From a virus, in the IMG/VR virus record IMGVR_UViG_3300030116_002805, positions 1-20,043 of that record: 20,043 bases of DNA; one strand, 5' to 3'. The translations under genes and the position numbers were made by a program. This document shows, in pieces, positions 1 to 18,574 of this stretch. The notes below the pieces were generated by a model. It searched no databases, was not told where the DNA came from, and saw only the letters and a list, made by a program, of their open reading frames with translations. Within the stretch, counting starts at the first letter, position 1. The number at the start of each line of letters is the position of its first letter.

Positions 1-345
1 TGGGTTGTCAAAATAAGATTGAACTGGAAGTTTAAACTCATATGCTGCACTACCTGATGTTGTTGTAGTTACACCTAGAGCAATCGTACCTGCTGTGTCT
101 GGAAACCATACGTGGTCACCAGCAGAATCCCAGGTTCCTTTAACTGTGAGACTAGTATTGCTACCTCCCAAACCTGTACAACGTACTATGATTGATTCAA
201 TACGTCCGAGAAATTTACCCGATGTGTCAATCTGTTCTGGGATTACTAATGTGTGTTTGTGATACTTAGTAGATGCAAAGTTCTGGTCTACTGATGCTAC
301 GTTAGTATCATTGATACTTGGATGGTCGTTGTGTCTAATGTTCAT
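1..345 (-). CDS. Virion-protein-like beta-rich protein, N-terminal 115 residues (partial at left edge)
   Basis: The frame is open from an ATG at 343-345 to the left edge, so the C-terminus is missing. The visible protein starts MNIRHNDHPSINDTNVASVD. After about 30 polar residues it alternates short hydrophobic and Gly/Ser/Thr-rich segments (around IESIIVRCTGLGG and then TVKGTWDSAGDHVWFPDTAG), which looks like a beta-sandwich virion protein. The start is well supported. Its ATG shares one base with the TAA stop of the giant upstream gene (TAATG), and a full GGAGGA ribosome binding site lies just before it. Position at the end of a tail/internal-protein block suggests a tail, fibre or capsid-accessory protein, but I recognise no family. 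The function is inference only. Confidence 0.8.
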   Translation of the reverse strand, partial: MNIRHNDHPSINDTNVASVDQNFASTKYHKHTLVIPEQIDTSGKFLGRIESIIVRCTGLGGSNTSLTVKGTWDSAGDHVWFPDTAGTIALGVTTTTSGSAAYEFKLPVQSYFDNP

Positions 346-3300
346 TATTCCTCCGAGGGTTGAATTAAGTTTGTGTCTCTAAATATAGCCGCTTCGCTTG
401 CAGTTTCTTCGCCTGTTTTTACAGTATTTAAATACCGTAAAAACAATTTCATATTTCGTTGCTGCTGTACATTTTCGGGATTTACTTGAGATATAGAATA
501 CAGTCCTGAAAACGCACCAAGTCTTGTTAGTGATGATTGATTTGCTTGTGTCGTTCCCTCTGGACTAAACAGCCTTACATAGTCCATAACTTGCGCTTGC
601 AAACCAGTTAACACTAATGCGGTATAAAAACTTTGATGATACAATTTCTTTCTTTGTGATGCTGACAATGGATACACATAACCATCAATTGCATTTTTAT
701 CATTTGGTTTTGCAGGTCTAGGTCTTACTCGTCCACCTGCATGCCGTTCAAGTGCTGCTGCCCTTTCGTTTGGAGTTGAAGCATTATTAAACATTGACAA
801 CAATGTAACTACCTCAGGCTTTGCCAAACTTGATTCGTACTTCCTTTTTAATGGAAGTATCTCTTTGTATATTGGTTGTAATAAATTTATTAAAGGTAAA
901 AAAGGGTCTACTTCTTTTCCACCAGCTAGTTGTGCTGCTTTAAACAACGATACAAGACCTGAACCAATTATTTCAACAGAATCAATAGCAGGTATTGGTG
1001 GTGCCATTAAAAATGCAGTCTTGTCGTTATATGTATTGATTTCATAAACCACACGATTCTGAGCAAATATAGGGTAATACATTTGATATGGTAGTTGTTT
1101 ATCATCGTTAAAAGCACGTAACAACGTATTAGATGACTGGGTTAATCGCAACATCCTAGCGTATCGCATTAGTGCTTGTGGTCTTGTCAACGCCATAAGA
1201 CCATTTTTAATGTTTTGGTATTGAAAACTAGAAAACACTAATGCAGACTTTGCAGCGTTTTGCCAATCCTGTGGCATATCACTGTAATCAAACATTGAAC
1301 GTCTAGCCAGGTTGGCTGCTTCATCTACACTGCGTCCTTGCTCTAATGCTCTTGTTAAAACAGCAGCTCTAAATATAAAATCTTCTTGAGTTTGTAGGTA
1401 CAACGGTTTTTCTACAACCCATTTTTTTAAGTTTCGTAAAAAATTAAACGCTTGGTCCCCGATGTTATCGTTTCTCATACTATTTAATTGTTTAACAAAA
1501 TCACTACCATCACGCAGTTGTGACTGCAAAAACTGAAACTGATTACGCACACCACTTTTTTGCAATATCTTAAACAAATCACCATTAGTATACACCTTGC
1601 CATCTGGTGTACGTAAAACAATCTTGCCATAATTAGGCGCGTTTATACTTTGACCTGACCAAACAACTCCTAATCCACGTCGTATGTTTGATGGGCTAAC
1701 AACTTCACCAGTTGTCTGATAAACAATGGTAGCCGCAGTAGTGGTGTTTCTAACATGAGATGCAGGTCGCCATCCCAAAAGAGTTACATACAATGACTGA
1801 TTAATTACATCAAATGTCTTTTTTATAAAAGCCCAATCTTCGGGAGACTGTATAACTGCTTGCATAATAGAACGTCTATATTCTTGACCACCATTAGCAA
1901 AAGCGCGTTTCAATGCATTGTATCTGTCTACACCAAAAATAGCCTGGGCGTAGTTATCGTTTTTAAACAATGCATCAATAGACTCTTGCATAGAGTTGAC
2001 AGTGCCTTTACTTTTGTTTAACAAATTGTTGTTACGTAAAACTAACTCTGCATACTCTTGTACTTTTGGTATAATTTTATTTGCTTCAGTGTCTACCATA
2101 CGCACTTGTTTTGCTGCATCTGAAATACGTATTAGTGCAGGAACACGTGTTTCATTTGCTATTCTTTCTACGTATTGTTCTGCCGTTTCATCAGGAAATT
2201 TATTCCTTGGTATTATCTCTTCTATTTCTTCTTTGCTTATAATCCTTTCCAGTGGAAACCTTGTTTCTTCTAGTGTTTCTCTTATTCTTTTAAGGTCATC
2301 TTCTTTCGTTTGTTTTAATGATGCCCTTAACTCCTCCAGTTCTTTTGCGGATGTTTCTTGAAACGCTCTTAACTCAGCAGTTGATTCTTCCACTGCCTGT
2401 AACATCTTTGGTGAGTACACGGCTTCAGGACCTTTAGTTCTTTTTAAATTTCTAATTCGTCTTGATGCTGCCTTTTGGGTTTCCTCAATAGAGTCATCTA
2501 ACATTTTTATAAGTTTTTCTTTACGTTTCTTTGCTGCTTCTGTAGACGCTTTAACCTTTTTTGCATCGCTTCTTTGTTTCCTTAACTTTTTTAATTTTGC
2601 GTCTTTTTCTGCTGTTATCTTTTTTACTTCAGCAGTACCACGTTCAGCACGTGGTATGTTTTTTGTTTTTTCTTTTAGTGCATCTTTTGATTTTTTTCTT
2701 AACTTTCGTTCTTGAACACTAATTTGTCTATTCTTTTCACGTATAATCGCTTTATGTTCTAGATTTGTTTCTGTTACATATTCTTCAACTTCTCTTTTTA
2801 CGCGAGCGTTTTGTTCTTCGTTTAATAATTTGTTTGTTTCTCTTGATGTTTTATTTTCTTCAGCAAAATATTTTTTTAAAATTTTACGTACTTCGTTTTC
2901 AGCATCATCAAATTTAAAACCATAAGAAACAAGCTCTATTTCTTTTGCATTATTTAGGGTTCTAATGCGGTCGCCTTGTAAGATTTCAATGACGTCTATT
3001 TTGTTATTTTTTCGTAGTTGCAATGCTGCATCTTTAACCATTGCTTCAAATCTTTTTTGCGCACCATCACCTAGCAGTTCTGCTATTTCTGGCATGTCTT
3101 TGACACTTAATTTAGTAAGGTCTTCGTTAATTGTTTCAAGAATTAATCTAGAAACAACACGTTCAGACTCTGCAGCAAAATACGTAGAGAATGTTAGATT
3201 CCCCATTTTCTTATCTAATAGTTCATCTGTTACATTTAAAACGTTTGTTGCGTCTAATGTGTCATCTACAATGGGTTCATTAAATCTTTCAATACCCTTT

Positions 3301-6300
3301 TCAGTTTCTATATCTACTTCACGCAACCTGTTAGTAGGATTTTGTATAGCATCGTTTATGTCATCTATTAAAGACTTTACTTCTGCCCAATAACTTAGAG
3401 GGTCATCTATTACACGCTCTTGCAGTACTAACAATTGCTCTTGTATGTATAACTGTCCATGACCATTAAATATGTCTGTTTGATAAACTTCTTGTATACC
3501 TGAAAATTTATCTGATTGACTAAACTTTGGGTCTGGCACATCTCCCTTTCTAATAAATAGATTAGTTAAAAGAAAATTAGTAGACTCGTTTATGCTATGT
3601 AACTGAGCTGCTTTTCCCAGTTCACTCGCTTGACGTTCGCCAATAATCATTAGACCTAGTATTTCTTGTGCTTCTAATGGTCTGTCGGGAACATTTTCTA
3701 AATATCGTGCTACAATGTCTTGTTTGTTATTTAGTATTTCTTGAAACAACTCTTCACTACGAATAGAAAAAGTTCCCATTTCACTGTTGTATTTATCTAT
3801 AATACGTAACTGTTCAAAGGTAAGAGAAGATTTGCTTGGTAGCACTGGTCTATTTAAAGAGTCAGCCAACTGTTTACGAATGTTGTACGAATCTCTGTTC
3901 AGCAACTGTGATAATTGGTATTCTATATTATTACTTAAAACACTTAAACGTTGAACCGTACCTCTTGCTTCTAGCAGTCTAGAAGCATTATCTAAGGCTA
4001 ATCTGTCTACATCTTGTACAGTAATAGAGCCTTCATCAAATCTTGCTATGATGTCTTTATTGCTATCTATAATACGTCTGTAATCATCTAAGAACAGAAT
4101 GCCATCATCTTTTATATTGCTTATAATTGCTCTTTTTAAAGTCTCACTTAAATCTAAACCTTCTATAGCAAGTACCAATTCATCTTGTTCATTAGGTGTC
4201 AATCTATTTAGTTGAAACGCTGCTTGTGTTTCGTCTAATGTTGCTACTTGTCCTCTACCAAAAACATCATAGGGAACGTCACGCGCTGGTCGAGTTGCCA
4301 TTACTGTCTTTACATCTTTTAGGTCGCCTTCTACAATCTTACCTATAAGCTGACCAAGTTTGCTTTCAGAATGCAATGCAAGTATACGAGCAACTCTGTC
4401 TTTGTGGACTAGTACATTTGGTGTTATCCAACTTAGATTTTCTAACCCTTTTATATTTGGGTCTGTACGAAACAATATAGGCGTAGCATACAAAGAATCA
4501 ACATTTTTTAATGCGTTAGTTGCAACATCACCACCTAATGCTTGTGCTGACTTAATAGCCTGCTCTGCCCCTTGCCAATCAACTAAAGTTCTAGTGCCTT
4601 TCATTTGGCGTTTAATTTTATTTAACCCTACTTCTGGATTAGATTCTTTTAATGCTTGGCGTACTACTTCAGTCGTTTCATCATATGACTTCAACAATTT
4701 TGCTGTTTCTTCATTCTCCATTAGCAGTTTACGGTATTTACCAGATGCTAATTGTTGTGCCATTTCGGGTGATTCTTCAACACTTTCCTTAAGCAATTTT
4801 GCATATTGAGTATCACCAAAACCAAGTTCTACTATTTCATCAAATGTCTTTCCTTCTTTTGCTAAACGTTCAGCATTTAAATTACGAGCAACGTTATCCT
4901 TCATTGCAATAATCAAATCACCTTTATGAAGGTCTGTTATTGGTGGTTCTTGATTTGTATATTTTTTATAGATTCTTAAAGATGCATTCATTAAAGGAAC
5001 TTCTTCCATGAATGCATCTTTAGAAATCTTTAATGCTTCATCATAGTTCTTTGCACCATATAATTTTTGCTGTAATCTTAAGGTGTTTGTAAATGCCGAT
5101 GTGCCTTGTATAGTACCAGTTGCTACATCAAACGTTGGGTCCACCAAATCTAATAAGAAATAACCACCTACTGCACTCCATTTTGTAATGCCTTCTAGGT
5201 TCATTTCATTGGCTATAGCAACCCCTTCACCAGTAAACCCTTTAAATCTAGCAATGTTGTCTGCTATTTCACCAACACGACCGTAATTTTTATATAGTGG
5301 TGGTCGCTCTCGTTCTCGTATACGCCTTGTGTACTGAGGGTCTATGTAACTTTCGCCTTCAGGGAGTTGTGGCAAAACCCCTGCTGCTTCTGCTATTTCA
5401 GCACCAACACCAATAGCAGTTCCTCCGGCTACGTTTAATGCTTCTGTACCAAGCACAGCAGTTACGGCTAATGGGCTAAAAGCACTACGTAAAACCCAAG
5501 ACAAAGTTGTTTCGGTAGTACCACCCAATGGAGTTTCGTCTGTAAAAACCCCTGCTTTATCATAATAGTCTATGTTTTCTAAGACATTTTTACGTTTGTC
5601 TAAAGTTTGTTTCCAATCAGGGTCGCCCAGTTCGTTGTATGCACGAACGCGCGCTAATGCATTTATTGCTCTATTATTTGTACTTATGTCTCGTTCAATA
5701 AATTCATTAAACTGGTCTTTAAAGCTTACCCTACCTTCTTTGATAGCCTTTATAATTTCTAAATCTCTATCTGTATTATAAACAACACCACCTAAAGGAT
5801 TGTTTCTTAGATATAAGTAAACTTCTGTTGGAAGGTATTCGTAATCACCATTAGCAACTTTAACCACAGCCATACGTTTTTTTTGAAGTCGATTTTTTTC
5901 GTTTTCATTATTTCGTAATGCATTTTCAAATTGTTGTATCTTGGTACGGTACTTATAGTTTTGTTGATTTTCTAAAAACCTAAGTTGTTCGTCTGTGTAT
6001 AGTGGAAGTGCTGTACCAGTTGTTTTTTGATAATCGTATGCGGCTGCAAACATATCTTGCAAGTCACCGCCTTTAAAACGTTTTTTTGTACGAGGGTCTA
6101 ATTTTTCTGCTTCTGCAGGTGTAATGTATTTAACTTCACCAAAAAACAAATCATTCAATTCATCTACAACTTTTTCGTAAACTTGTTGTTGATTTAAAGT
6201 TGGATTGTTTGTGCGCATTTGGTCAAACATAGACAACGATGCTTCAATCATACTGTTACGGTCTGTTTCTGGTACAGAAGCATATTTTTGCGTTAACTGT

Positions 6301-6752
6301 TTTCTAAGTGATTCTCTGGCGTTTATTGTTGTAGGCTTTTCTGTTTGTGCTCGTTTTTCACCTATAGTCTGTTGCCTTTTAAAAGCAGATGTTAAAACAT
6401 CAAGTGGAGTGGCAAACGCACTTTCAGCTTCAAACGGTGCTGTAACTGCATCAATAGCACCGCTTGGTGGTACAGCCCGTTCTTCAAATCCACCAAAACT
6501 TGCTATTTGACCTGAACCCTTAGCAACTTCTAGTTCTTGTATTCGCTTTACTTTTTCTTCATTACTGAGAGTTGGATTTGCATAAATAGCAACTTGCGCT
6601 TGAACATTAGCTGGGATTTCTTCTACAAAAGATTCAATAAGACCAGCCTGCTGCATGGCTTCAGCGCGCTTTAAAGCCTGTGTATATTGTTCTGGAGTCT
6701 CAATCTTTTGTGATAAAAGAACTTCAAGTTCCTTTTTACTAGGCGTTCCCAT
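345..6752 (-). CDS. Giant internal virion (DNA-ejection type) protein, 2135 residues
   Basis: This is a very large, mostly alpha-helical, charged protein and the last of three consecutive internal-type proteins. It occupies the place of the large ejection protein of T7-like phages (T7 gp16, about 1318 residues) but is far longer. The N-terminus is polar and helical. An Ala/Gly/Val-rich segment lies around residues 414-455 and another hydrophobic stretch around 522-550, both candidates for membrane contact. Residues about 1290-1510 are a Lys/Glu/Arg-rich coiled coil. The last 500 residues contain LLGWRPASHVRN (about 1660) and FIFRAAVLTRALEQG followed by RSMFDYSDMPQDW (about 1825). Similar FDY-type segments occur near the ends of other huge phage virion proteins. 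I see no lytic transglycosylase or other enzyme signature. There are no cysteines at all. The start is 4 bases after the previous stop, with a weak GGTGA ribosome site. A role in crossing the envelope during DNA ejection is inferred from size, position and composition. Confidence 0.85.
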   Translation of the reverse strand: MGTPSKKELEVLLSQKIETPEQYTQALKRAEAMQQAGLIESFVEEIPANVQAQVAIYANPTLSNEEKVKRIQELEVAKGSGQIASFGGFEERAVPPSGAIDAVTAPFEAESAFATPLDVLTSAFKRQQTIGEKRAQTEKPTTINARESLRKQLTQKYASVPETDRNSMIEASLSMFDQMRTNNPTLNQQQVYEKVVDELNDLFFGEVKYITPAEAEKLDPRTKKRFKGGDLQDMFAAAYDYQKTTGTALPLYTDEQLRFLENQQNYKYRTKIQQFENALRNNENEKNRLQKKRMAVVKVANGDYEYLPTEVYLYLRNNPLGGVVYNTDRDLEIIKAIKEGRVSFKDQFNEFIERDISTNNRAINALARVRAYNELGDPDWKQTLDKRKNVLENIDYYDKAGVFTDETPLGGTTETTLSWVLRSAFSPLAVTAVLGTEALNVAGGTAIGVGAEIAEAAGVLPQLPEGESYIDPQYTRRIRERERPPLYKNYGRVGEIADNIARFKGFTGEGVAIANEMNLEGITKWSAVGGYFLLDLVDPTFDVATGTIQGTSAFTNTLRLQQKLYGAKNYDEALKISKDAFMEEVPLMNASLRIYKKYTNQEPPITDLHKGDLIIAMKDNVARNLNAERLAKEGKTFDEIVELGFGDTQYAKLLKESVEESPEMAQQLASGKYRKLLMENEETAKLLKSYDETTEVVRQALKESNPEVGLNKIKRQMKGTRTLVDWQGAEQAIKSAQALGGDVATNALKNVDSLYATPILFRTDPNIKGLENLSWITPNVLVHKDRVARILALHSESKLGQLIGKIVEGDLKDVKTVMATRPARDVPYDVFGRGQVATLDETQAAFQLNRLTPNEQDELVLAIEGLDLSETLKRAIISNIKDDGILFLDDYRRIIDSNKDIIARFDEGSITVQDVDRLALDNASRLLEARGTVQRLSVLSNNIEYQLSQLLNRDSYNIRKQLADSLNRPVLPSKSSLTFEQLRIIDKYNSEMGTFSIRSEELFQEILNNKQDIVARYLENVPDRPLEAQEILGLMIIGERQASELGKAAQLHSINESTNFLLTNLFIRKGDVPDPKFSQSDKFSGIQEVYQTDIFNGHGQLYIQEQLLVLQERVIDDPLSYWAEVKSLIDDINDAIQNPTNRLREVDIETEKGIERFNEPIVDDTLDATNVLNVTDELLDKKMGNLTFSTYFAAESERVVSRLILETINEDLTKLSVKDMPEIAELLGDGAQKRFEAMVKDAALQLRKNNKIDVIEILQGDRIRTLNNAKEIELVSYGFKFDDAENEVRKILKKYFAEENKTSRETNKLLNEEQNARVKREVEEYVTETNLEHKAIIREKNRQISVQERKLRKKSKDALKEKTKNIPRAERGTAEVKKITAEKDAKLKKLRKQRSDAKKVKASTEAAKKRKEKLIKMLDDSIEETQKAASRRIRNLKRTKGPEAVYSPKMLQAVEESTAELRAFQETSAKELEELRASLKQTKEDDLKRIRETLEETRFPLERIISKEEIEEIIPRNKFPDETAEQYVERIANETRVPALIRISDAAKQVRMVDTEANKIIPKVQEYAELVLRNNNLLNKSKGTVNSMQESIDALFKNDNYAQAIFGVDRYNALKRAFANGGQEYRRSIMQAVIQSPEDWAFIKKTFDVINQSLYVTLLGWRPASHVRNTTTAATIVYQTTGEVVSPSNIRRGLGVVWSGQSINAPNYGKIVLRTPDGKVYTNGDLFKILQKSGVRNQFQFLQSQLRDGSDFVKQLNSMRNDNIGDQAFNFLRNLKKWVVEKPLYLQTQEDFIFRAAVLTRALEQGRSVDEAANLARRSMFDYSDMPQDWQNAAKSALVFSSFQYQNIKNGLMALTRPQALMRYARMLRLTQSSNTLLRAFNDDKQLPYQMYYPIFAQNRVVYEINTYNDKTAFLMAPPIPAIDSVEIIGSGLVSLFKAAQLAGGKEVDPFLPLINLLQPIYKEILPLKRKYESSLAKPEVVTLLSMFNNASTPNERAAALERHAGGRVRPRPAKPNDKNAIDGYVYPLSASQRKKLYHQSFYTALVLTGLQAQVMDYVRLFSPEGTTQANQSSLTRLGAFSGLYSISQVNPENVQQQRNMKLFLRYLNTVKTGEETASEAAIFRDTNLIQPSEE
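349..354 (-). promoter_or_regulatory. Strong Shine-Dalgarno (GGAGGA) for the leftmost gene
   Basis: GGAGGA on the minus strand ends 3 bases before the ATG at 343-345 and lies inside the last codons of the 2135-residue gene. It is the closest match to the Shine-Dalgarno consensus that I found in the window. It fixes the start of the partial left-edge gene and suggests that gene is translated efficiently. Confidence 0.7.
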
Positions 6753-6755
6753 ACA

Positions 6756-8852
6756 TCACCGTTTGTCTGTAATAACTGCTAAGTACATCAAGTCTAACAT
6801 ATCTAATGCTTTTCTTTTTTGCGTAGTGTTATTTATACCTAGTTTGATTTGTTGCTGTGCATTTTTGTACAACCGTTCTATATCTTCTGTTTTAGTATCA
6901 TCATTTACTGGAAACAATGACAATACCAAACTTTGCGAATCTTTGTTTAAACCACGTATTTCTTCACCAAAACGATAATACTGACCAGGTTTGCTTTTTT
7001 GCAACGCCTTTACTTGTCTCATTTGACGAGATTTTTTAGGGTCGATTGCTTTAACCATTTCCATTAAAATTTTATCTTTTGTTTTCTTGTACTCTTTACT
7101 GCTAACACCGTATGCTTCTTTTGCTTGCTGTAATAATTGAAGTGCAACTCTTTGCTTTTGCATGACCCCTTGATTTCGTACACTATCAAATGCTGATGTA
7201 ATTGGGTCCTTTGTTATTATCTCCTGCTTATCTTCCATGTATGGTATGCGACCTAATATTTTTACACGGCTCATAGGTGTTGGTGTTGGTGCAGGTGCAG
7301 GTTCCGCAAACATATCTATTTGACCAGTAGGTAAAAAGTCAGTAACTTGCTCTTCAGTCATATCGGGTGTAACCTCTATATCGACTGGAGTTTGTTCTTG
7401 ATACATTTGTGGTCTGTATCGTTCTAATGTTTGGTCAAGCATAGTTTGACCAACTGTTGGTATACGATTTTCAATAAAATCCATCGGTGCGTTTTCTGCT
7501 GCTTGCTGACGTATTCGCTCTTCGTCAACTGACTCAGAAAACCTATCCATTTCCATTTCTTCTTCTGTTTGTGGAGACTGCAGTATTTCTTGTTCTACAG
7601 GGACGCTTTCAGCAAACTGACCTGTAGAGTCAAATTCTTCTTGATAGTTTTGTGGTGTAGGACTTACACCTAAAATTTCTTGTTCTACTTGTTGCTCAGG
7701 TGTAAATGTTTGAGTTCTAACTGGCTGTTGCGTTGGTTGTTCAACATTCGTTAGGCTTCTATTTGCTAGGCTTCTATTTGCTATTTGTGATGTCAGATTT
7801 GGTTGTTGAAACCTAGACATATCATTTTGAACTGGCGTATCAACAACTTCATCAACAGGTTCCTCAACTACTTGTTCGCGTCCAAATCTATCTAGTAGTC
7901 TTCTGCGTCTACGCACAGGCTGACCGAACTTATCTGCATATATTTCACGTGTTCTGTCAATAACATCTACATTTGGAGTAACACCTAATGCAGCCATTTC
8001 TTCTTGCAGTTTACGTATTCGTTCTTCTTTTAAATCTACTTGTGGCTGTAGACTAACTCCACCTAGTTCTTGGACAGGCTCTCTGTAGTATCTAGAAGTT
8101 GTTCTTTTACCATCACCAGTTCTAGTATCTTCAGTACCACCAACCTCTATTGGTAAACCAACTTGAGTTTTATAATGCTCTACATATTCATTTGGGCTAA
8201 ATGGTTGGACTTTACCTATTTCAGTGGTGATTTCACCTTGTCTTGTGCGATTGTCTTGCAACTGCTGAATTATGTTGTTGTATTGCAGCTCTTGTTCAGT
8301 TTCTGCATTTTGCAAAAATTGAAACATTGGCTGACCACTATCTGCCATTGCTTGCAATTTTGGAATCTCTGTAGCCAATCCTGTTGCCATTGTTTGTAAT
8401 CTAGCGTTGTCTGTGTTTATATCTCTAGATTCATTTCTTAAGTCACCTAAGTATTCGCTTTTGCTTGGTATTTTTTGACCCTTTTTACCCTTAGTTCCAG
8501 TACTAACATCACCTCTTGTAACTGTAGTTAGACTTGCCTTTGCTTTCATTCGTTGATTTTCAATTTGTCTTGCTTGGTTTAAGTCCAACTGTTTTAATTT
8601 AAGTTTGTCGATAGCACTTCGTTCAGCATCTATTTGCTGCTGAATAAGTTGCATTTTTTCACGACGTTGTTTTTCTGAAATAAGACCTTGATTATACTCA
8701 CGCATAGCCTGGTCATATGCTGATTTGTACAGCATATACTTTTGCTTAGTAACCAAATCAGCCCAAGATTGACCATTGGTTGTTCTGCGTGGGTCTCGAC
8801 CACTTCCTGTAATAACGTAGACCCCTTGCCCTCCTACTTGTTGTATAGCCAT
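6756..8852 (-). CDS. Internal virion protein-like, Gln-rich coiled-coil protein (698 residues)
   Basis: I recognise no exact family. The N-terminal 120 residues are helical and rich in Gln, Lys and Arg (for example MQLIQQQIDAERSAIDKLKL), predicting a coiled coil. The middle, about 300-540, is low complexity: an arginine run (VRRRRRLLDRFGRE, about 312), many PQ/EQ segments, a duplicated ANRSL unit and a PAPAPTPTP stretch. These look like flexible linkers. The C-terminal 150 residues are again helical and basic. There is no signal peptide or clear transmembrane segment and no cysteine. Its ATG shares one base with the stop of the 289-residue gene (TAATG), and the giant protein follows 3 bases after its stop. 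The order 289, 698 and 2135 residues parallels the three ejection proteins of T7 (gp14, gp15, gp16), so I infer the middle internal/ejection protein. Confidence 0.8.
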   Translation of the reverse strand: MAIQQVGGQGVYVITGSGRDPRRTTNGQSWADLVTKQKYMLYKSAYDQAMREYNQGLISEKQRREKMQLIQQQIDAERSAIDKLKLKQLDLNQARQIENQRMKAKASLTTVTRGDVSTGTKGKKGQKIPSKSEYLGDLRNESRDINTDNARLQTMATGLATEIPKLQAMADSGQPMFQFLQNAETEQELQYNNIIQQLQDNRTRQGEITTEIGKVQPFSPNEYVEHYKTQVGLPIEVGGTEDTRTGDGKRTTSRYYREPVQELGGVSLQPQVDLKEERIRKLQEEMAALGVTPNVDVIDRTREIYADKFGQPVRRRRRLLDRFGREQVVEEPVDEVVDTPVQNDMSRFQQPNLTSQIANRSLANRSLTNVEQPTQQPVRTQTFTPEQQVEQEILGVSPTPQNYQEEFDSTGQFAESVPVEQEILQSPQTEEEMEMDRFSESVDEERIRQQAAENAPMDFIENRIPTVGQTMLDQTLERYRPQMYQEQTPVDIEVTPDMTEEQVTDFLPTGQIDMFAEPAPAPTPTPMSRVKILGRIPYMEDKQEIITKDPITSAFDSVRNQGVMQKQRVALQLLQQAKEAYGVSSKEYKKTKDKILMEMVKAIDPKKSRQMRQVKALQKSKPGQYYRFGEEIRGLNKDSQSLVLSLFPVNDDTKTEDIERLYKNAQQQIKLGINNTTQKRKALDMLDLMYLAVITDKR
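7752..7781 (-). repeat. In-frame 15-bp tandem duplication (ANRSL x2)
   Basis: Two perfect head-to-tail copies of a 15-base unit (plus-strand TAGGCTTCTATTTGC at 7752-7766 and 7767-7781) lie in the linker region of the 698-residue protein and encode ANRSLANRSL (about residues 357-367). A partial third start follows. It is in frame, so it lengthens the linker by five residues without harm. It is most simply explained by replication slippage. Confidence 0.85.
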
Positions 8853-9721
8853 TACATACCTCTTCCTGTTATAAATGCCGTCATCATGTCTTGAACTGTA
8901 GTGTCTGTTGGTTTCTTAAAAGTCATATTGTCATCTAATACTGCTTCTTGCATGTTTATGACATCAGGCATTACAAAAGCATTTGGTTTGTAGGAACCAA
9001 ACAATGCTAAATCTTCACTACTCAAACCAAGTGAAGGTGCTACAATGTTTTCCATTATTGTTTGACTGTCTTGAGTCGCAAGGGCTTTTTGTGCAGCTGC
9101 TTTGGCATTTTCTGTAGCCGTAGCAACTTGCTTTGCTTGTTCTATTTCTGCTTGAGATGCTTGTTGTAACAAACGTTCTAAAGCCATTTGACCAACGTAT
9201 GCTTCTGCTGCAGACTGGAATGGTGCGGTAAGACCTTCTGCCCTAGCACGTTTATATTGGGCTTGTGCTGCTTCTAAGTCTTTTATTTCTTGTTGTTGTT
9301 GCTGTTGACGTTGCAAGTCTATGCCCAGTATCTGTGAAGCCAAATCTGCTTCTAGACGCTGTCTACCTTCATCAGCCATTTGTTGCCCTAGCAATGCCAT
9401 CTGTGGCTGTGCTGTGGGTTGTGTAAGTCTTGCTCGTTCAGCATTTGCAAACTGTTGTGCTTGTTGACGAGTTTGTCGCATCTGTGATTCAATTGCTGCT
9501 CGTTCACGGTCTGTAAGACCTAACGCACCCATCTCTTGTTTACGTTGCATTTCACGTAGTCTTTTCTTTTGGTCACGCTCATATTTACTAGGGATAATGT
9601 CAGGCAAAGCACCAATTGCTGTACCTGCTCCACTTAACAATGCTCCTTTTGTTAAAGCACTAGCACCACCTAGTTTTCCTGCTGCTAATGCTGCTGCGCT
9701 TAATCCTGCTCCGATTGCCAT
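8852..9721 (-). CDS. Small internal virion protein-like (T7 gp14-like position), 289 residues
   Basis: The N-terminus (about residues 1-45) is Ala/Gly/Leu-rich and hydrophobic (MAIGAGLSAAALAAGKLGG...). A basic hinge follows (SKYERDQKKRLREMQRKQE), then a long Ala/Gln/Glu/Arg helical region with a run of six glutamines near residue 138. This hydrophobic-start, coiled-coil pattern is typical of the smallest ejection protein of short-tailed phages (T7 gp14, P22 gp7 type), which inserts into the envelope first. There is no cysteine. The start is well placed: AGGTGA lies before the ATG, and the upstream gene's TAG stop is part of that ribosome site. The stop overlaps the next ATG by one base. The role rests on composition and position, not on a recognised motif. 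Confidence 0.8.
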   Translation of the reverse strand: MAIGAGLSAAALAAGKLGGASALTKGALLSGAGTAIGALPDIIPSKYERDQKKRLREMQRKQEMGALGLTDRERAAIESQMRQTRQQAQQFANAERARLTQPTAQPQMALLGQQMADEGRQRLEADLASQILGIDLQRQQQQQQEIKDLEAAQAQYKRARAEGLTAPFQSAAEAYVGQMALERLLQQASQAEIEQAKQVATATENAKAAAQKALATQDSQTIMENIVAPSLGLSSEDLALFGSYKPNAFVMPDVINMQEAVLDDNMTFKKPTDTTVQDMMTAFITGRGM

Positions 9722-9728
9722 AGTTCAC

Positions 9729-10442
9729 CTACACATGAAATGTTTCTATTGTAAAAGACTGACAGTTAATGTTTCCTTTTTCAATTTTAGAATCAACTGC
9801 GACTGAAAATTTATATCTGCCTGCATTTAATGTTAACATACGAGTTATCATTATGCTGCGATGTCCAGATGCTGTATTTTTTGCACCAGGGTTTGGTGCT
9901 CCTCCAACGGGTGTACTGGTTGGGTCATTTTGGAATACATAACTTTTTGTACCTGCAAACCTAGAAATTAAACCATTCCTTTCGTATTGTAGTTGAAATA
10001 CATTATCCCACAATCTATTACCAGAACTATAAGTTACAGTGCTGTTCATAGGTCCAAATGCTTTAGCATAAAAAGTTACCATTACTTTTGTGTTTGCTTT
10101 GTATATTACAACTTCGCATCCAGTATTGTTTAATGGTTGAAAGTGTTGAACATCAGGACTTGTTTGATTGTTGCTCTTAGTGGTCGAGGTGAACCAAGCA
10201 TATTCTTGTGGTAATCGTACTTTTGATACACCTTGCACAGTTTTAGACACAAAGTCACCAGTTTGTACAGAAGATACAAAACGAGGGGTAGCAATACTCT
10301 CTCCAACAAAGGTATCAGTAGATAAGTCACTAGCAACGATTTCTTGGTTGACATATTCCCTCAATGCATCTTCATTAGATGCGTGATTAGTGGCTGATAA
10401 AACTGCGCCATCTACGTATGTAAAAGGTTTTGTAAATCCCAT
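9729..10442 (-). CDS. Short beta-rich tail protein 3 (fibre/whisker-like), 237 residues
   Basis: This is the third of three consecutive tail proteins of 225-239 residues. The N-terminal 50 residues (MGFTKPFTYVDGAVLSATNH, then a segment ending in SDLSTDTFVGESI) resemble the short connecting modules at the head of phage fibres. The rest is rich in Thr, Ser, Asn, Gly and Val with alternating strands and ends in FTIETFHV, as expected of a jelly-roll or beta-sandwich head domain. It has two cysteines. Its ATG shares one base with the stop of the previous gene (TGATG). I recognise no family. A minor tail, short-fibre or virion-surface protein is inferred from position and composition. Confidence 0.75.
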   Translation of the reverse strand: MGFTKPFTYVDGAVLSATNHASNEDALREYVNQEIVASDLSTDTFVGESIATPRFVSSVQTGDFVSKTVQGVSKVRLPQEYAWFTSTTKSNNQTSPDVQHFQPLNNTGCEVVIYKANTKVMVTFYAKAFGPMNSTVTYSSGNRLWDNVFQLQYERNGLISRFAGTKSYVFQNDPTSTPVGGAPNPGAKNTASGHRSIMITRMLTLNAGRYKFSVAVDSKIEKGNINCQSFTIETFHV

Positions 10443-11119
10443 CAGTTCTCCACTATTATTGTTTGTATGTGATTGTGTTGTATTTTAATAGTGTTACCAG
10501 TATGACCAACGCATGCTTGCAATTCTATAGTGTCAATAACGTTACCGGCTGGCAGTGTAACTAAACCACTAAAAGCAAAAGTTCGGTATTGTATAATATC
10601 AGTCATGCCTGTAACTAATCCAGTGCCTTGTGTTGTTAGGGCTGCTTTTTGTGTAAAACTATATGTACAGTTAGCAACTGTTACTGTGCTTGGCGTACCA
10701 CTACTGTTTAAAGACATTAAAAGTCTAAATGCATATGTATTTCTATTAGTTTGTAAACTTGTACCATCACCATCATTTACGTCTAATGTACCTGTTGTTA
10801 TTAAACCACTTGCCTGCACACGCACAACAACATTGGCATGTGAAGAATAATTTGGGGCTACCTTGCTTTTGGTAGGTCCTACATTCTCTATTGTAGTGTA
10901 TGCTGTATTGCTAACAGTAAACTCCACCGTTCCATCGTAATCAAATGTATACAAACTTGTAATGCTATTAGTATTAGAAAAATGTTTGCGTTGTGCCCAT
11001 TCTGTATCTAAGTTGACATCGGTTACACTGTCACTAGCAACACTATTATAAACCGCATTTAATTGTGCTGCAGAAGGTGCTTGTCCTCCTTCGAAGTATT
11101 GATTTGATACCTTACCCAT
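10442..11119 (-). CDS. Short beta-rich tail protein 2 (fibre/whisker-like), 225 residues
   Basis: The N-terminus reads MGKVSNQYFEGGQAPSAAQL, a phage-fibre-like opening followed by a short helix and VNLDTEWAQRKHF. The body is Thr/Ser/Val/Asn-rich with alternating beta strands and ends in IQTIIVEN. The layout (about 45-residue N-terminal module plus about 180-residue beta domain) matches the genes on either side, which suggests a paralogous or co-assembling set. An AGAGG ribosome site lies about 5 bases before the ATG. The gap to the upstream stop is only 2 bases and the downstream ATG overlaps its stop. A receptor-facing or tail-decorating role is possible but unproven. Confidence 0.75.
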   Translation of the reverse strand: MGKVSNQYFEGGQAPSAAQLNAVYNSVASDSVTDVNLDTEWAQRKHFSNTNSITSLYTFDYDGTVEFTVSNTAYTTIENVGPTKSKVAPNYSSHANVVVRVQASGLITTGTLDVNDGDGTSLQTNRNTYAFRLLMSLNSSGTPSTVTVANCTYSFTQKAALTTQGTGLVTGMTDIIQYRTFAFSGLVTLPAGNVIDTIELQACVGHTGNTIKIQHNHIQTIIVEN

Positions 11120-11121
11120 GC

Positions 11122-11841
11122 TTACCTCTTAGTGTTGCATGCCCATATGCATGCACCATATATTTCCATGCTTGACTTGTGTGATGCTACACTAAGTGCT
11201 TGTTCTGCTGAAGTGTCAATAGCTTGCCACTTTAGTTCTAAGCGCACAGGTTGAGAACCTATAAAAATTTTATATGGAATAGAAACGTTTAATAGCCTTG
11301 GATATACTCTACCTGTTTCTGCAATAAGAACATCATTGCAAAATAAACCCCAACGTGCCCACCAATCTACAGACCACGTTTCTATTGAACCACTTGATTT
11401 TATTCTATCCACACCATGTCGAAAATTTATATCAAAACAACCACTTAGAACACCGCTCTCTGCTTCAAATTCTAAAACAAAATCATTAAATGTGCTGTCT
11501 AATTCAGTAAGATTGTTCCAACCACTTGACCAACTGTTATTCTGTAGATTAAAGTTTATTATTGGTGTATGTATGTCAGTCCCGTTATCAAGCACTCTCC
11601 ATCTTCTAACAAAATGATAGTTTTGTGTTTGTCCCACATAACTAAAACCATTAACGTGTGCTGTGCTTGTTGATGTCAATGTTGGTGGTGCCATTTTAAG
11701 TTTATCAACAGTCGCTATTGGAAAGTTCTGACCATCCAATTTGCCGTTGTACTCACCTACAACTTGCCGTGTGTTGTCATTGATGTTTTCTGGTTTAACC
11801 TGGTCAAGGTCCTTTTGTCCTACTTGAGTAAATACTTTCAT
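11122..11841 (-). CDS. Short beta-rich tail protein 1 (fibre/whisker-like), 239 residues
   Basis: The first of the three short tail proteins. Residues 1-45 form a polar start (KVFTQVGQKDLDQVKPENIN), followed by GKLDGQNFPIATVDKLKM, which resembles fibre-head modules in other phages. The remainder alternates beta strands and is unusually rich in tryptophan (WSSGWNN, WSVDWWARWG), with four cysteines including the closing ACIWAC. Such a domain suits a carbohydrate-contacting or jelly-roll surface, but this is inference. The start overlaps the nozzle gene's TGA (ATGA, 4 bases), so translation is probably coupled to it. That coupling supports assembly onto the tail tip or nozzle. Confidence 0.75.
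   Translation of the reverse strand: MKVFTQVGQKDLDQVKPENINDNTRQVVGEYNGKLDGQNFPIATVDKLKMAPPTLTSTSTAHVNGFSYVGQTQNYHFVRRWRVLDNGTDIHTPIINFNLQNNSWSSGWNNLTELDSTFNDFVLEFEAESGVLSGCFDINFRHGVDRIKSSGSIETWSVDWWARWGLFCNDVLIAETGRVYPRLLNVSIPYKIFIGSQPVRLELKWQAIDTSAEQALSVASHKSSMEIYGACIWACNTKR
11136..11155. repeat. Perfect 7-bp inverted repeat at a gene junction
   Basis: TGCATGC at 11136-11142 and GCATGCA at 11149-11155 are perfect inverted copies around a 6-base spacer. They lie within the last codons of the 239-residue gene, just upstream of the AGAGG ribosome site of the next gene. In the transcript they could form a 7-bp hairpin. There is no T-run after it, so it is not an intrinsic terminator. It may be chance or a processing or translation-tuning structure. 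Confidence 0.6.
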
Positions 11842-14042
11842 CGTGACACCTTTGTAGACTGGTTAAGTGCAGGCATAGCAACTGAATCTGACAAGATGTT
11901 AAAAGACAACAAATGCCACTGTTGAGAGTTGGTAGTTCGTATACCAAACTTAAACTGGTCGCACAACTGTGTATTGACATCATACCGCAATGTAATCAAT
12001 CTGCCTTCTGCTATCTTACTAGAGTTAACTGTAAATGGCACTTTGGTTACAGACAAGTCAGCAGGACCAAACACAGCATCTTCATTAATAGTGTACACCG
12101 TTTCACTCTTTGCCTGCTTTTGAGTCGAGGTAGTGCTCTCTGTGTACGAGTAGTCAATCCCATAAAAGAAGTCAAACCCATTGTCTCCATATGACATGAT
12201 GCGAAGTTCAACACTAAAGTATCGTACTTTGACACTATTTTCGTTTGAGTTGTACCAGGCACTTTCCCATTGGTGACCATTGTGCGTTGTATTAGTAATA
12301 GTTAATGTTACGTTATCACCAAATGCAGTGATTTGACCTGCTTGTCCCCAATGCGAACTGGAAGACATAACTTGAAGTGGACCAAACTTATTTGTTTCTG
12401 CATTTAATGCAGGTGTCCAGTTTGGGTCGTTCCCTAATAAAAAATAGCCATTAACAGTTGTGGCCATAGCAGACCAATAACTATTAGATGGATTTTCTAA
12501 GTCTGTACGAATAGACCACATAGGGGCTTGAGGTGTTAAATGCAACACGTATCCAAAATCTGGTGTAGTAGAATCGTCAGTTGGGAGGTGCAGCCATACT
12601 TCTTTTTCTCTGTAAGAATATGCTGCTATAGCCTTATGCATCATTGAACGATTAACTCTACGCAACAGTTTGTCTATAGGCTGACTAATCTTTTGCATGC
12701 TTATCGATGCGCCTCCATTCAAGCCGCCTGACAGCATCCACACGCCTTGTTCATTAATAAAGACAACACCTAACTGAGGTATTACTACAACAGCCTTACT
12801 GGCTACTGTGCCAAGCGTGTTAGTAATAGTGCTAATGTTATAACTATCTGTATCAAAACTTATAATATTTATAGCACTTTCACGAAATACAATTAAATTA
12901 TTATAAAAGGCTACTAACTGTGTTATATCACCACCAGTTTGGTTTCCTAAATCAAAGTATGCCAATGCTCCAAACTGCTCAAAAATACCTTTATTAGAAT
13001 ATATTATACGGCTACCTGCTGCTAACCACAGTCGATTGTCCCAAACTTCACCAAACTTCCAATTGGTTGTTATGGGTGTACTTGCTGTAAATGATGGTGC
13101 TTGGTCAACCAAAAAAGCATCAGGCAAAGTATCTGTAAAAAACCTGCTTGAGTTTTCGTCAATTTGTGCAACAAAATAGTACAGTTCACCATTTTTATTA
13201 ATTTCTTTGGTTCTGTATATTCTTCTTGCAACTACACCTTCTTGTCCTAATGGCATGTCTAACACTACACCGTAACGTAGTGCAGGACTAGCAGGGGGCA
13301 AAATCCATGAAACACTCTGCGCGCCTGACAAAGGAGATTCTGCACCAAGGTCACTAATCATAGTTACTTTATAGTTGTAGGTAAACTGACTTTCTAATAC
13401 TGTACCTGAATCATTCTTTTCTATGTACCCAAGACCGTATTGAGTACTTTCTGCAAACCAAACTGCAGCTCCACCTGCTAATACATTATTTTTCTGATAG
13501 TCAGCATCTACATTTAAAGGGTCAGCACTTGGTGTATTTATAACAAAACCAAAGTCTCTATATACTTCGTCACCACTAAACAGTATTGCACGGTCCCGTC
13601 CGTTGATAATCAACAGATGTTGTCCTAAGTTTACAAACTGACTACCAACATCGCCAAGTTTAGGAATGTATCGGTCACTGTCAATCGTTACCAAGTCATT
13701 CTCATAGAAGGCACCTGAATACGTTGCACCCTGTCCTTTGTTACCAATAGCGTAGTACAATCGTCCTGACTGCTCAATAAAGGTGTATATGTCATTGGTG
13801 CCTTGTCTTTTCCATTGATAAACGGCATCCACTTTGTCAGTAAAGTACTTTGTAACAATGGCACTGGTAACAGTCCAAGATGCAGGTGCATGCCACCATG
13901 ATTCAAACCCAACATCTGCTTTCCAACCGCCTTCAGAAACGTATCTACAGTTGTTAACAATGTTTGCGTCTCCAATGTTTGGCATAAGTACTTGACTTAT
14001 ACCTCCACATGGCACGAAGCGTTTGAACCTTTGTGGCTTCAT
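11838..14042 (-). CDS. Probable tail nozzle / stabilisation protein (P22 gp10 or T7 gp12 functional analogue), 734 residues
   Basis: The length and beta-rich composition fit the propeller-containing nozzle protein that closes the tail of podoviruses. Repeated blades of the type IIYSNKGIFEQFG, ITQLVAFYNNLIVFRESAIN and GVVFINEQGVWMLSGG (about residues 340-450) resemble phage stabilisation/nozzle proteins, where hydrophobic strands ending in a turn recur. The N-terminus (RFVPCGGISQVLMPNIGDAN) is also of the kind seen in that group. The C-terminal 200 residues are a further beta-rich region. The gene starts with an ATGA overlap on the adaptor gene and is followed by short fibre-like genes, the usual place for a nozzle. 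The assignment rests on pattern and gene order. A related tail-hub protein is the main alternative. Confidence 0.7.
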   Translation of the reverse strand: MKPQRFKRFVPCGGISQVLMPNIGDANIVNNCRYVSEGGWKADVGFESWWHAPASWTVTSAIVTKYFTDKVDAVYQWKRQGTNDIYTFIEQSGRLYYAIGNKGQGATYSGAFYENDLVTIDSDRYIPKLGDVGSQFVNLGQHLLIINGRDRAILFSGDEVYRDFGFVINTPSADPLNVDADYQKNNVLAGGAAVWFAESTQYGLGYIEKNDSGTVLESQFTYNYKVTMISDLGAESPLSGAQSVSWILPPASPALRYGVVLDMPLGQEGVVARRIYRTKEINKNGELYYFVAQIDENSSRFFTDTLPDAFLVDQAPSFTASTPITTNWKFGEVWDNRLWLAAGSRIIYSNKGIFEQFGALAYFDLGNQTGGDITQLVAFYNNLIVFRESAINIISFDTDSYNISTITNTLGTVASKAVVVIPQLGVVFINEQGVWMLSGGLNGGASISMQKISQPIDKLLRRVNRSMMHKAIAAYSYREKEVWLHLPTDDSTTPDFGYVLHLTPQAPMWSIRTDLENPSNSYWSAMATTVNGYFLLGNDPNWTPALNAETNKFGPLQVMSSSSHWGQAGQITAFGDNVTLTITNTTHNGHQWESAWYNSNENSVKVRYFSVELRIMSYGDNGFDFFYGIDYSYTESTTSTQKQAKSETVYTINEDAVFGPADLSVTKVPFTVNSSKIAEGRLITLRYDVNTQLCDQFKFGIRTTNSQQWHLLSFNILSDSVAMPALNQSTKVSR

Positions 14043-15550
14043 GAAAGTCTCCTTAAGGTAGTTCCATCGTATGTAGGTCTTCCATATGCCATATGAAAAC
14101 GCCCACGCACAATACGTTGGTCAATCTTGTCAACATACCGCTTTGCTAAGTTGTTGATTTCTTTCATGTATTTCTTTTCATACGTTGCTGCCAAGCCCTG
14201 TTGACCCAACTTTAAGTAAATGTCTTCTAATGCTTTGTATACTATCAACTGATGAAATTCATACGGCATCTGTGGTACATCAGTAGACAACAACAAATCC
14301 TTTGGTTTTACCATAAAACGCATAACCATTTCACGAACGTAGTCATGGTACACTTCAATAGTGTCTCCAACTTTCTTCTGAGGAACCTCAAAGTCATATC
14401 CAACTGGGCGTGGATACGGTCTTATTTGTTGATGATTACCATCAATTTCAATGTAGCGTGGCGAACCATTGTCTAGTTGGTTTAACTTAACTATATTAAC
14501 AAATGAGTTAATGTCCGTTACTACAACTGGTCGTAAATAATCAGGGTCATTTCGAGTACCTGATGTGGTATTGGTACCATTTACAACAAATAGCCAACAT
14601 GGCAAACCTTTTCGTTCACCTGTGTTCTGGTCAAAGTTTTTGTTCCAACAAACAACTTTACGATAGCCTTCCCATTGAGTAGGCTCGCGGTCTTGATTAT
14701 TATAGGTGTCTGCTTGAATTGATAAGTCATCCCATCCTATAAAAGACAGTTTTAATGTTTTGTTGTTTTCAGCAACTTTATAAATAACTGGTTCAGACAG
14801 TGCTCCTATCTTACCATCTTTAACAAACGCCCATGCAAACTCATAGTATTTATTAGATTGAAATTCACCTGTAGGTGGAGCAACCTCTGAAATGGTTAGT
14901 TGTTCTGCAGGTTTAATATGTTGTGTAGGGCTAGTAATGTATGCTTCTGCGTAAGATTGTGTATAATCTACACGCAAATCTAAGTCTTCTTCTCGTCTAG
15001 GTAAAATGGCTGTAGATTTACCATATGGATTTTGTGAGCCACTTACACTGACGTATGGATAATCTCTGTGCCCTAAATATAATAGTTCTAAACAGTTTTC
15101 TGGTAGGTCATACCATCGTTTTTTTATCTTCCACTCTTTGTTAGTAGCATTGGTGGTGCCTTCAAATGGTTTGTCTAACAATATAGTTTTCATGTCAACA
15201 AGTTTAGAAATAGTGTATTCCATGTTGTCTATTTCCATAGGTTGACCTTCCCACACATCCATGTCATGCAATCGGTCAATGTTATGACTTAATACAACTT
15301 GTCGTTGACCCTTAGTAACATTTGCCGTAACGTTAACACCGCTGCTATTTTCTGTGTCTGTACTAGTAGTTATGTCTGTGTGCAAGCGCATAGTGCTAAG
15401 TTCTGTACTGAAGTTCCAACGCTTCATTGTCCATATACAATAATATGCGTCGTTTATCAGTTCATCTAACTGGTCGTTAAACTGTGCTAGTTCAGGACTG
15501 TAGTCTGTAATGTTTTTAACTTTCTGTCTCAATGCTTTTAAATTTGCCAT
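14039..15550 (-). CDS. Probable head-to-tail adaptor / tail tubular protein A-like, 503 residues
   Basis: The N-terminal helix pair (MANLKALRQKVKNITDYSPE ... LDELINDAYYCIWTMKRWNF) is the opening typical of adaptor proteins that dock under the portal. A beta-rich middle follows (about 60-360). The C-terminal 110 residues return to helix with MPYEFHQLIVYKALEDIY and a basic YEKKYMKEINNLAKRY segment, a common ending in this group. At 503 residues it is much longer than T7 gp11 (about 196) or P22 gp4 (about 166), so the middle is probably an inserted beta domain. It is the first gene after the capsid terminator. A GGTGA-type ribosome site precedes the ATG, and the nozzle gene overlaps its stop by ATGA. 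Confidence 0.7.
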   Translation of the reverse strand: MANLKALRQKVKNITDYSPELAQFNDQLDELINDAYYCIWTMKRWNFSTELSTMRLHTDITTSTDTENSSGVNVTANVTKGQRQVVLSHNIDRLHDMDVWEGQPMEIDNMEYTISKLVDMKTILLDKPFEGTTNATNKEWKIKKRWYDLPENCLELLYLGHRDYPYVSVSGSQNPYGKSTAILPRREEDLDLRVDYTQSYAEAYITSPTQHIKPAEQLTISEVAPPTGEFQSNKYYEFAWAFVKDGKIGALSEPVIYKVAENNKTLKLSFIGWDDLSIQADTYNNQDREPTQWEGYRKVVCWNKNFDQNTGERKGLPCWLFVVNGTNTTSGTRNDPDYLRPVVVTDINSFVNIVKLNQLDNGSPRYIEIDGNHQQIRPYPRPVGYDFEVPQKKVGDTIEVYHDYVREMVMRFMVKPKDLLLSTDVPQMPYEFHQLIVYKALEDIYLKLGQQGLAATYEKKYMKEINNLAKRYVDKIDQRIVRGRFHMAYGRPTYDGTTLRRLS

Positions 15551-15563
15551 AGGTCACCATACG

Positions 15564-15592
15564 AAAAAAGGGATGGGCGAAACACCCACCCC
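15564..15592 (-). terminator. Rho-independent terminator after the capsid/decoration genes
   Basis: Read on the minus strand, GGGGTGGG-T and its partner GCCCATCCC form an 8-9 bp stem (two G.U pairs) around a short loop, followed directly by six T (15569 down to 15564). It lies in the 65-bp gap between the decoration gene's stop and the adaptor gene's start. The T-run is on the correct side only for the minus strand, so it would end the capsid transcript and limit read-through into the tail genes. Confidence 0.88.
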
Positions 15593-15615
15593 TTCGGCTT
15601 GATAGAAAATCTAAC

Positions 15616-16092
15616 TTAGAACTGCTTGATAACAAACACGATTGCTTTCCCACCTGCTTCAGCAGCACCTGCCACTGCAAGGATAGGGTCTTCAAAGGTG
15701 TTTTGGTATGGTTCCAAAATACCTACAGTGCTGTAAATACTTAAACGGTCACCAACAGCAGTACCTGCTTTAACTTTTGCTTCAGCCATACCACCGATAC
15801 ATACATCAACTGTATCTCCAGCAGCAGCAGCAGCACTAATAGCAACACCGATTCCACAACGCTTTGCGTTTGTACCAGTATCGGCTTTCATTACAAAGAT
15901 AGCCTTGTCACCATTGTTGGTTTGAGCCAAGTCCAAAGACAATGCGTCACCAACTGCAATAGCCTCAGATGCAATGAAGGTTTCGATTTGACGACGATTC
16001 ATCGCTTCGATTCCTACAGGTACTGTACCACCAGAAGGTAATGCGTTGTACTGAGAAGTTTCCAAGTATTGGATAATGTTTTGTGTAGCCAT
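15616..16092 (-). CDS. Small head protein, probable capsid decoration/stabilising protein (158 residues)
   Basis: A small Ala/Gly/Val-rich protein directly behind the major capsid gene. After about 30 polar residues it contains a compact beta-barrel-like region: GDALSLDLAQ, CGIGVAISAAAAAGDTVDV, KVKAGTAVGDRLSIYS and a closing GKAIVFVIKQF. This pattern of short strands joined by AGD-type turns is like the DUF2190-type head proteins often found beside capsid genes. It has no enzyme motif. A strong AAGGGGG ribosome site sits 6 bases before the ATG, and the gap to the capsid stop is 11 bases. Sharing the capsid's promoter and terminator, it is probably made in similar amounts and coats or braces the shell. 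Confidence 0.8.
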   Translation of the reverse strand: MATQNIIQYLETSQYNALPSGGTVPVGIEAMNRRQIETFIASEAIAVGDALSLDLAQTNNGDKAIFVMKADTGTNAKRCGIGVAISAAAAAGDTVDVCIGGMAEAKVKAGTAVGDRLSIYSTVGILEPYQNTFEDPILAVAGAAEAGGKAIVFVIKQF

Positions 16093-16103
16093 GATAAACC
16101 CCC

Positions 16104-17138
16104 TTAGAAAGTGTCTGCGTCAAAGAGAACACCACAAGAACCGAGGTGGTCTGCAATCAATTGCATTTTAACATACAATTGGGCAGCCCGTGCTGTAGTT
16201 CCTGAAATGTGTTCAAAAGGTGAAACGGCAAAGTCAGCATCTTTGTGCATGCACAACTTAACACCGTCAAAGTTAAGGAAGTAACCAGACAATGGAGCAG
16301 GAACCCCACCATGAAATGATCCAGATGTATAGTTAAAACCAAGTTCAAGGTCTTGTTCAACAACAGCACCACCAAAAGCAAGTTGCATACGTCCACCATC
16401 AAGAGTCTTCTCGTTGATGTAACGTTCTTGTGCAAACAAAGCACGACGGTAGTTAGCCATTGCTGCTTCTGACAAAAGCACACAGTTAATTTCACCCATG
16501 TGAGTTACAGTGTTTGCTTGGATTGCCATTTGTTGCATACCAAGAATACCGTTTGTACCAAAAGCACCTGCTACGTCAGCCAACTGATTCAACCAACCGT
16601 TTACTGGATAAGTTTGCTTAGAAATACCACCAACAGAGTTACCAGCAGCAGCCTGTTGAGCCTTAGTTTCTGCTTCTAAGAATCCACCAGCAACGTCACC
16701 GTTCAAAGTGTTTACAGTGGTCAAAACAGTAGAGTTACCGCGAAGCAACTGCTTGTTCAACTCACGTCGAAGCATACCCATTACTGAGCGCATACGGGCT
16801 TCAACAATCTTTACGATTGCTTTCTCGCCTTTGTTTTCCAACTCTTCTTTCTTAGTGATAACGATTGGAGCAGTAAAGTCAGCCCACTCATAAATAGCAG
16901 GTTGCAATACGTCTTTAACAGCAAGGTTTACTGCTTCGTATCCAGTAGGAAGGTTGGTGATTTGAGAGTGTTCAGCGATTGAAAGGGGACGTTGGATTTT
17001 AATACCACCATCTTCATACTCAATACCGCCATATCGTTTTGCATTGTCAAGGAATGCAACCTTTTGAAATAATTCGTCAACTTCGCCATCACGGATGGAA
17101 TACAAGGTTGACGATAGCAAATCATTCGAAATAGCCAT
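16104..17138 (-). CDS. Major capsid protein (HK97-fold type), 344 residues
   Basis: This forms the icosahedral shell. The N-terminus (STLYSIRDGEVDELFQKVAF) and the IEYEDGGIKIQRPLSIAEHS segment look like the N-arm and first strands of HK97-fold coat proteins. EWADFTAPIVITKKEELENK followed by a long helix rich in Arg/Met/Leu (about residues 110-135) matches the E-loop/spine-helix region of that group. Residues about 215-340 contain the A-domain-like strands and end in GSCGVLFDADTF. It lies between the amidase and the decoration gene, with the scaffold upstream. The start has an AGGT site about 7 bases before the ATG and follows a long leader with its own promoter. Its coding DNA looks less A+T-rich than the tail genes (one sampled 60-base line, 16621-16680, is 28 of 60 G+C), as expected for a highly expressed gene. 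I cannot name the exact subfamily. Confidence 0.85.
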   Translation of the reverse strand: MAISNDLLSSTLYSIRDGEVDELFQKVAFLDNAKRYGGIEYEDGGIKIQRPLSIAEHSQITNLPTGYEAVNLAVKDVLQPAIYEWADFTAPIVITKKEELENKGEKAIVKIVEARMRSVMGMLRRELNKQLLRGNSTVLTTVNTLNGDVAGGFLEAETKAQQAAAGNSVGGISKQTYPVNGWLNQLADVAGAFGTNGILGMQQMAIQANTVTHMGEINCVLLSEAAMANYRRALFAQERYINEKTLDGGRMQLAFGGAVVEQDLELGFNYTSGSFHGGVPAPLSGYFLNFDGVKLCMHKDADFAVSPFEHISGTTARAAQLYVKMQLIADHLGSCGVLFDADTF

Positions 17139-18572: not shown

Positions 18573-18574
18573 CG

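Follow-up and report, generated by a model that had tools for sequence, protein, structure and literature searches.

The window analyzed here is a 20,043-nucleotide stretch of a 22,979-base IMG/VR virus record, and its main genes all lie on the minus strand. Read from the high-coordinate end, the gene order begins with a 661-residue gene that runs beyond the window edge and is portal-like by position. This is followed by a zinc-ribbon-like protein of 162 residues with five cysteines (19235-19723), located upstream of the scaffold in the late operon, and by an acidic protein of 192 residues (18751-19329), where the gene for the former overlaps the listed start of the gene for the latter. A scaffold-like protein of 290 residues (17706-18578), for which ejection through the tail is not expected, and an Amidase_2 gene come next. 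The major capsid protein (344 residues), the decoration protein (158 residues) and an SU10-type adaptor (503 residues) occupy positions 14039-17138, where the capsid protein matches PHROG 9953 major head protein and the adaptor matches the Pfam family SU10_adaptor with an E value of 5.6e-8. The nozzle (734 residues) and three short tail proteins (237, 225 and 239 residues), with functions as assigned in the original prediction, span 9729-14042. Cysteine content is normal across these seven capsid and tail proteins, with three residues in the capsid protein, two in the decoration protein, four in the adaptor, three in the nozzle and four, two and two in the short tail proteins, and they serve as an internal control.

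Three further genes lie downstream of the tail proteins. The first encodes 289 residues (8852-9721) and occupies the position of T7 gp14; it is predicted to be the small, first-out ejection protein and presents a hydrophobic, Gly/Ala-rich N-terminus followed by a Gln/Arg/Ala-rich segment. The second (698 residues, 6756-8852) is predicted from its position and size to be the middle ejection protein, of the periplasmic-tunnel type. The third is a giant of 2135 residues (345-6752), the predicted third and largest ejection protein, with a C-terminal region modeled as polyvalent-type and LPD38-like. A capsid search identified 104 related viral contigs, of which the longest measure 30-35 kb, and giant homologues are present in 19 of 31 relatives searched; a profile search for the giant returned 57 loci, which partly fall in the same records as those 19 relatives. 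In every examined relative with an intact region, the cassette directly follows the tail-protein genes in small-medium-giant order.

Inspection of the three products reveals no cysteine in 3122 residues, versus 20 in 2440 residues of the seven control proteins (Fisher exact P 7e-8), which reproduces exactly the counts of the original prediction. A Poisson model trained on non-ejection proteins was used to predict cysteine from the other 19 residues; with an imperfect fit (correlation of about 0.5, overdispersion of 1.5-1.8), it gives expectations of 11-16 cysteines for the giant, 2-5 for the 698-residue protein and 0.5-1.5 for the 289-residue protein, such that the giant carries the signal within the window alone. 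Taken by itself, the zero of the 289-residue protein is unremarkable. Across 22-25 related genomes, the depletion is decisive for all three proteins. The 698-residue family contains no cysteine in 15,705 residues (25 homologous sequences) and the 289-residue family none in 6,347 (24 homologues), that is, none in 22,052 residues jointly, and the giant family contains 10 in 41,166, compared with 543 in 61,732 for the seven control families of capsid and tail proteins. An extended set of 41 giants holds 14 cysteines in 79,623 residues, all confined to seven alignment columns, and the scarcity persists in relatives as distant as about 13-25% identity. None of these homologues has ordinary cysteine content. 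Because the sequences share kinship, Fisher P values computed from them are too strong.

To separate nucleotide from protein effects, all reading frames of the giant gene were compared. TGT and TGC never occur in frame; the remaining forward frames contain them 64 and 127 times, and each frame of the reverse strand 66-161 times. Codons that are frequent out of frame and absent in frame indicate that selection acts on the protein, and base-composition bias is ruled out as the cause. Amino acid composition explains roughly half of the raw cysteine deficit, and a deficit of 10-fold or larger remains after composition matching: the Poisson model predicts 187-300 cysteines for the family giants, where 9 are observed, and 147-262 for known ejection proteins, where 14 are observed. 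Long cysteine-free proteins are not common outside the virion interior, as none of the 78 non-ejection proteins of at least 600 residues from known phages and this family is cysteine-free, versus 13 of the 20 known ejection proteins that reach this length.

Ten phages (T7, P22, Sf6, N4, e15, SP6, SU10, phiKMV, P-SSP7 and crAss001) were compared to address whether the depletion extends to ejection proteins of other podoviruses. We take gp14-17 to be the ejection set of e15. Sets for T7, P22, Sf6, SP6, phiKMV and P-SSP7 follow record annotation, with a few members assigned by position, and those for SU10 (gp20-24; PMC9509320), crAss001 (gp45-47, 49 and 50; PMC10172136) and N4 (gp50-52; PMC12633501) follow published work. 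The comparison, which the original prediction had called for, succeeds: ejection proteins contain 15 cysteines in 29,383 residues, versus 171 in 25,126 (0.68%) for the other virion proteins of the same phages, and non-virion enzymes contain 157 in 11,463. Independent cases number fewer than ten, where T7, SP6, phiKMV and P-SSP7 form one family and P22 is close to Sf6. Wider sampling of single families gives no cysteine in 85,266 residues for relatives of P-SSP7 gp16 (69 sequences), 3 in 36,676 for relatives of the N4 virion RNA polymerase (vRNAP; 11 sequences) and none in 35,739 for the HTVC010P LPD38 giants (30 sequences). The boundary is sharp, with the P-SSP7 gp15 position cysteine-free in 45 of 45 sequences and the flanking fibre position at 0.43% cysteine. 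Further cysteine-free virion proteins of N4 are gp57 (405 residues) and the major coat protein (401 residues). N4 gp17 (279 residues), annotated as a virion protein and encoded among the early genes, is also cysteine-free and may be packaged or ejected.

The residual cysteines of known ejection proteins cluster near termini, with 10 of 15 located within 18 residues of a chain end where 0.64 are expected. A single cysteine at residue 2 is found in T7 gp14 (27728-28318 of that genome), at the P-SSP7 gp14 position (15956-16558) and in e15 gp14 (11586-12128). Among P-SSP7 relatives, the sole cysteine directly follows a GTG, ATG or TTG codon, a possible start, in 35 of 35 sequences. A function for the N-terminal cysteine of small ejection-type proteins is conceivable, for example in acylation or anchoring.

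Depletion is equally apparent for the tape-measure proteins of lambda, T4, T5, HK97, 80alpha and TP901-1, all six of which are cysteine-free (none in 5,842 residues), compared with 82 cysteines in 16,127 residues of other structural proteins from these phages. Exceptions exist among ejected proteins. T4 Alt contains 3 cysteines in 682 residues, and phiKZ gp178 and gp180, which we take to be virion RNA polymerase subunits, contain 5 in 1451 and 2 in 490, respectively; ejection therefore does not always forbid cysteine.

Searches of Pfam, PHROGs and PDB sequences returned nothing usable for the three cassette proteins, and the giant matches no transglycosylase family; neither the giant nor the adaptor has a tblastn match among 50,697 phage records. 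Conservation within the giant peaks at about residues 1794-1846 (1215-1373; '...ALEQGRSVDEAANLARRSMFDYSD...VFSSFQYQN'), a stretch with invariant columns in sets of 16 and 38 homologues. An AlphaFold2 model of residues 1000-2135 is almost entirely helical (mean pLDDT 76.9). With this model, a Foldseek search of BFVD gives as its best match, at E 3.9e-12, a viral protein annotated 'large polyvalent protein associated domain', together with an LPD38-named match at E 7.8e-4; TM-scores are low (0.15-0.45) because of multidomain length. Another match is the 504-residue M1IP02, which by its length may be the HTVC010P LPD38 protein. That cysteine-free 504-residue protein of pelagiphage HTVC010P matches LPD38 (PF18857) at E 9e-49 and gives a weak hhalign profile match to the giant, at its most conserved stretch (E 0.009). 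PF18857 itself is not matched by any of 16 giants at E 0.01, the C-terminal model retrieves only generic coiled-coil matches from the PDB, and a model of residues 200-800 has no significant structural match. The modeled C-terminal part of the giant may resemble LPD38 'polyvalent' phage proteins by fold, and membership in that family is not claimed.

The absence of cysteine, its persistence across relatives, its independence of nucleotide bias and its recurrence in unrelated ejection and tape-measure proteins are the observations that an explanation must address. We consider it probable that the three genes constitute the ejection-protein cassette of an uncultured marine podovirus, and that cysteine has been removed by selection on the protein, where thiols would harm stored and threaded chains. 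As we infer it, the three proteins would be packaged in the head, exit through the portal and tail nozzle and build a conduit across the host envelope, with the giant also bringing an LPD38-like region of the kind that characterizes phage proteins with a predicted entry into the host. The chains would be stored crowded and partly non-native, would thread a narrow channel and would regain their fold outside. In the oxidizing virion and envelope, a free thiol could then lead to disulfide cross-links or misfolding, such that ejection jams. Partial unfolding during ejection has been proposed for crAss001 (PMC10172136) and discussed for N4 (PMC12633501). Harm by thiols to proteins stored and threaded in non-native states is the most likely cause, and the results support the view that thiols are selected against in proteins whose exit from the particle leads through a channel; the sensitive step could be storage, threading, refolding or the oxidizing envelope.

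An alternative account, which we regard as rather unlikely, is that long, helical, hydrophilic or loosely folded proteins of the virion or procapsid lack cysteine because they have few buried core positions, with ejection being incidental. The share of the deficit attributable to composition fits this account, as do helix-rich controls, for which cysteine is lowered to 0.55% and 9 of 21 proteins are cysteine-free. So do scaffolds, which contain no cysteine in 6,953 residues in the window's family and 4 in 2,554 in known phages. The scaffold and the acidic protein, for which the original prediction had likewise noted a lack of cysteine, are cysteine-free in the window and in 25 of 25 and 21 of 21 homologues, respectively, such that cysteine exclusion extends to head-assembly proteins. 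Causes other than ejection are therefore possible, and absence of cysteine alone is no proof of ejection; as a marker it is weakest for proteins under about 300 residues. A broader rule may apply to loosely folded, mobile interior proteins, with ejection as one instance of it. P22-type scaffolds exit via capsid pores, and such an exit would fit a rule of pore transit. What speaks against few buried positions as the whole explanation is, in addition to the 10-fold or larger deficit that survives composition matching, a fold-matched control in N4, whose T7-like RNA polymerases are of two kinds. One, the ejected vRNAP, rightly named in the original prediction as cysteine-free, is a folded enzyme with no cysteine in 3500 residues, compared with 13 in 673 for the non-ejected RNAPII of the same fold (4 in 269 and 9 in 404 for its subunits). 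Likewise, the long coiled-coil proteins MukB and SbcC retain 10 and 8 cysteines, and two of the cysteine-free tape-measure proteins contain 27-29 tryptophans. The proposal that composition backs an ejection role for all three proteins, including the giant, thus gains support from the comparison across phages.

It is also conceivable, and in our judgment decidedly improbable, that cysteine is excluded because the chains cross an oxidizing periplasm in which Dsb enzymes would form wrong disulfides. Podovirus ejection proteins do act in the Gram-negative periplasm, as established for T7 and P22 (PMC12633501). A pure Dsb or periplasm cause is nevertheless downgraded because two of the six cysteine-free tape-measure proteins, those of 80alpha and TP901-1, belong to phages of Gram-positive hosts, and scaffolds lack cysteine though they never cross an envelope. 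An origin in chance, or in the base composition or codon bias of the phage, has a negligible probability and is refuted both for the giant and for the families taken together. All that speaks for it is the low number expected in the 289-residue protein alone; against it stand the abundant out-of-frame TGY codons, the ordinary cysteine content of neighboring genes and the recurrence of zeros in unrelated phages.

That the N4 vRNAP lacks cysteine has already been linked to its entry (Kazmierczak 2002, as cited in PMC2784036), and the vRNAP of phiAxp-3 was likewise noted to be cysteine-free (PMC4837373). In the open literature, no such statement covering the whole class of ejection or tape-measure proteins was found; subscription papers lay outside the search, and the novelty of the generalization is provisional. 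Near-absence of cysteine in ejected phage proteins looks like a general rule able to flag such proteins from sequence alone. The stronger form, in which a universal chemical constraint keeps cysteine out of all proteins that occupy phage tail channels or travel through them, and a cysteine-free late-operon protein of at least 600 residues can be called ejected or tape-measure without homology, is evenly balanced between holding and failing. The literature leaves open whether unfolding is needed for ejection proteins to get through a channel of some 35 Å (PMC12633501, PMC10172136), and a residue-level constraint common to unrelated ejection and tape-measure proteins provides evolutionary evidence on it. 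Absence of cysteine also offers a means of recognizing ejected proteins, with no need for homology, among the numerous phage giants that lack annotation.

Comparison with known systems places the cassette among several arrangements of similar design. N4 gp50 (vRNAP) with gp51 and gp52, of the Schitoviridae, is likewise a small, medium and giant cassette in which all members are cysteine-free; homology between vRNAP and the window giant was not detected, and the giant has no RNA polymerase family match in Pfam, PHROG or PDB. T7 gp14, gp15 and gp16 (gp16 being PHROG 342) share the size order downstream of the tail genes and contain one, zero and zero cysteines, yet show no profile similarity to the three proteins here (hhalign E 0.18-0.37, probability under 1%). 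HTVC010P relatives carry a cysteine-free small, medium and giant cassette behind the tail genes, and the predicted C-terminal fold of the giant matches proteins annotated with large polyvalent domains; LPD38 (PF18857) proteins differ from the giant in that a PF18857 sequence match is absent from it. In the HTVC010P record, a cysteine-free stretch at 11529-16346 is annotated as short ORFs (268, 370, 144 and 504 residues), and its relatives have continuous frames of 498-712 and about 1210-1250 residues over that stretch; possibly, the type record contains sequencing errors, or its gene is truly broken. The Kuravirus SU10 gives its name to the adaptor family that the window adaptor matches, and its gp20-24 contain no cysteine in 2956 residues. 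SU10 has five ejection proteins compared with three here, with no convincing homology to the giant (the profile comparison with SU10 gp24 failed), and its ejection proteins are lost from the virion upon genome release (PMC9509320). Tape-measure proteins of long-tailed phages reside in the tail tube and determine the length of the tail, unlike head-packaged ejection proteins, and resemble them in that both occupy or pass the tail channel.
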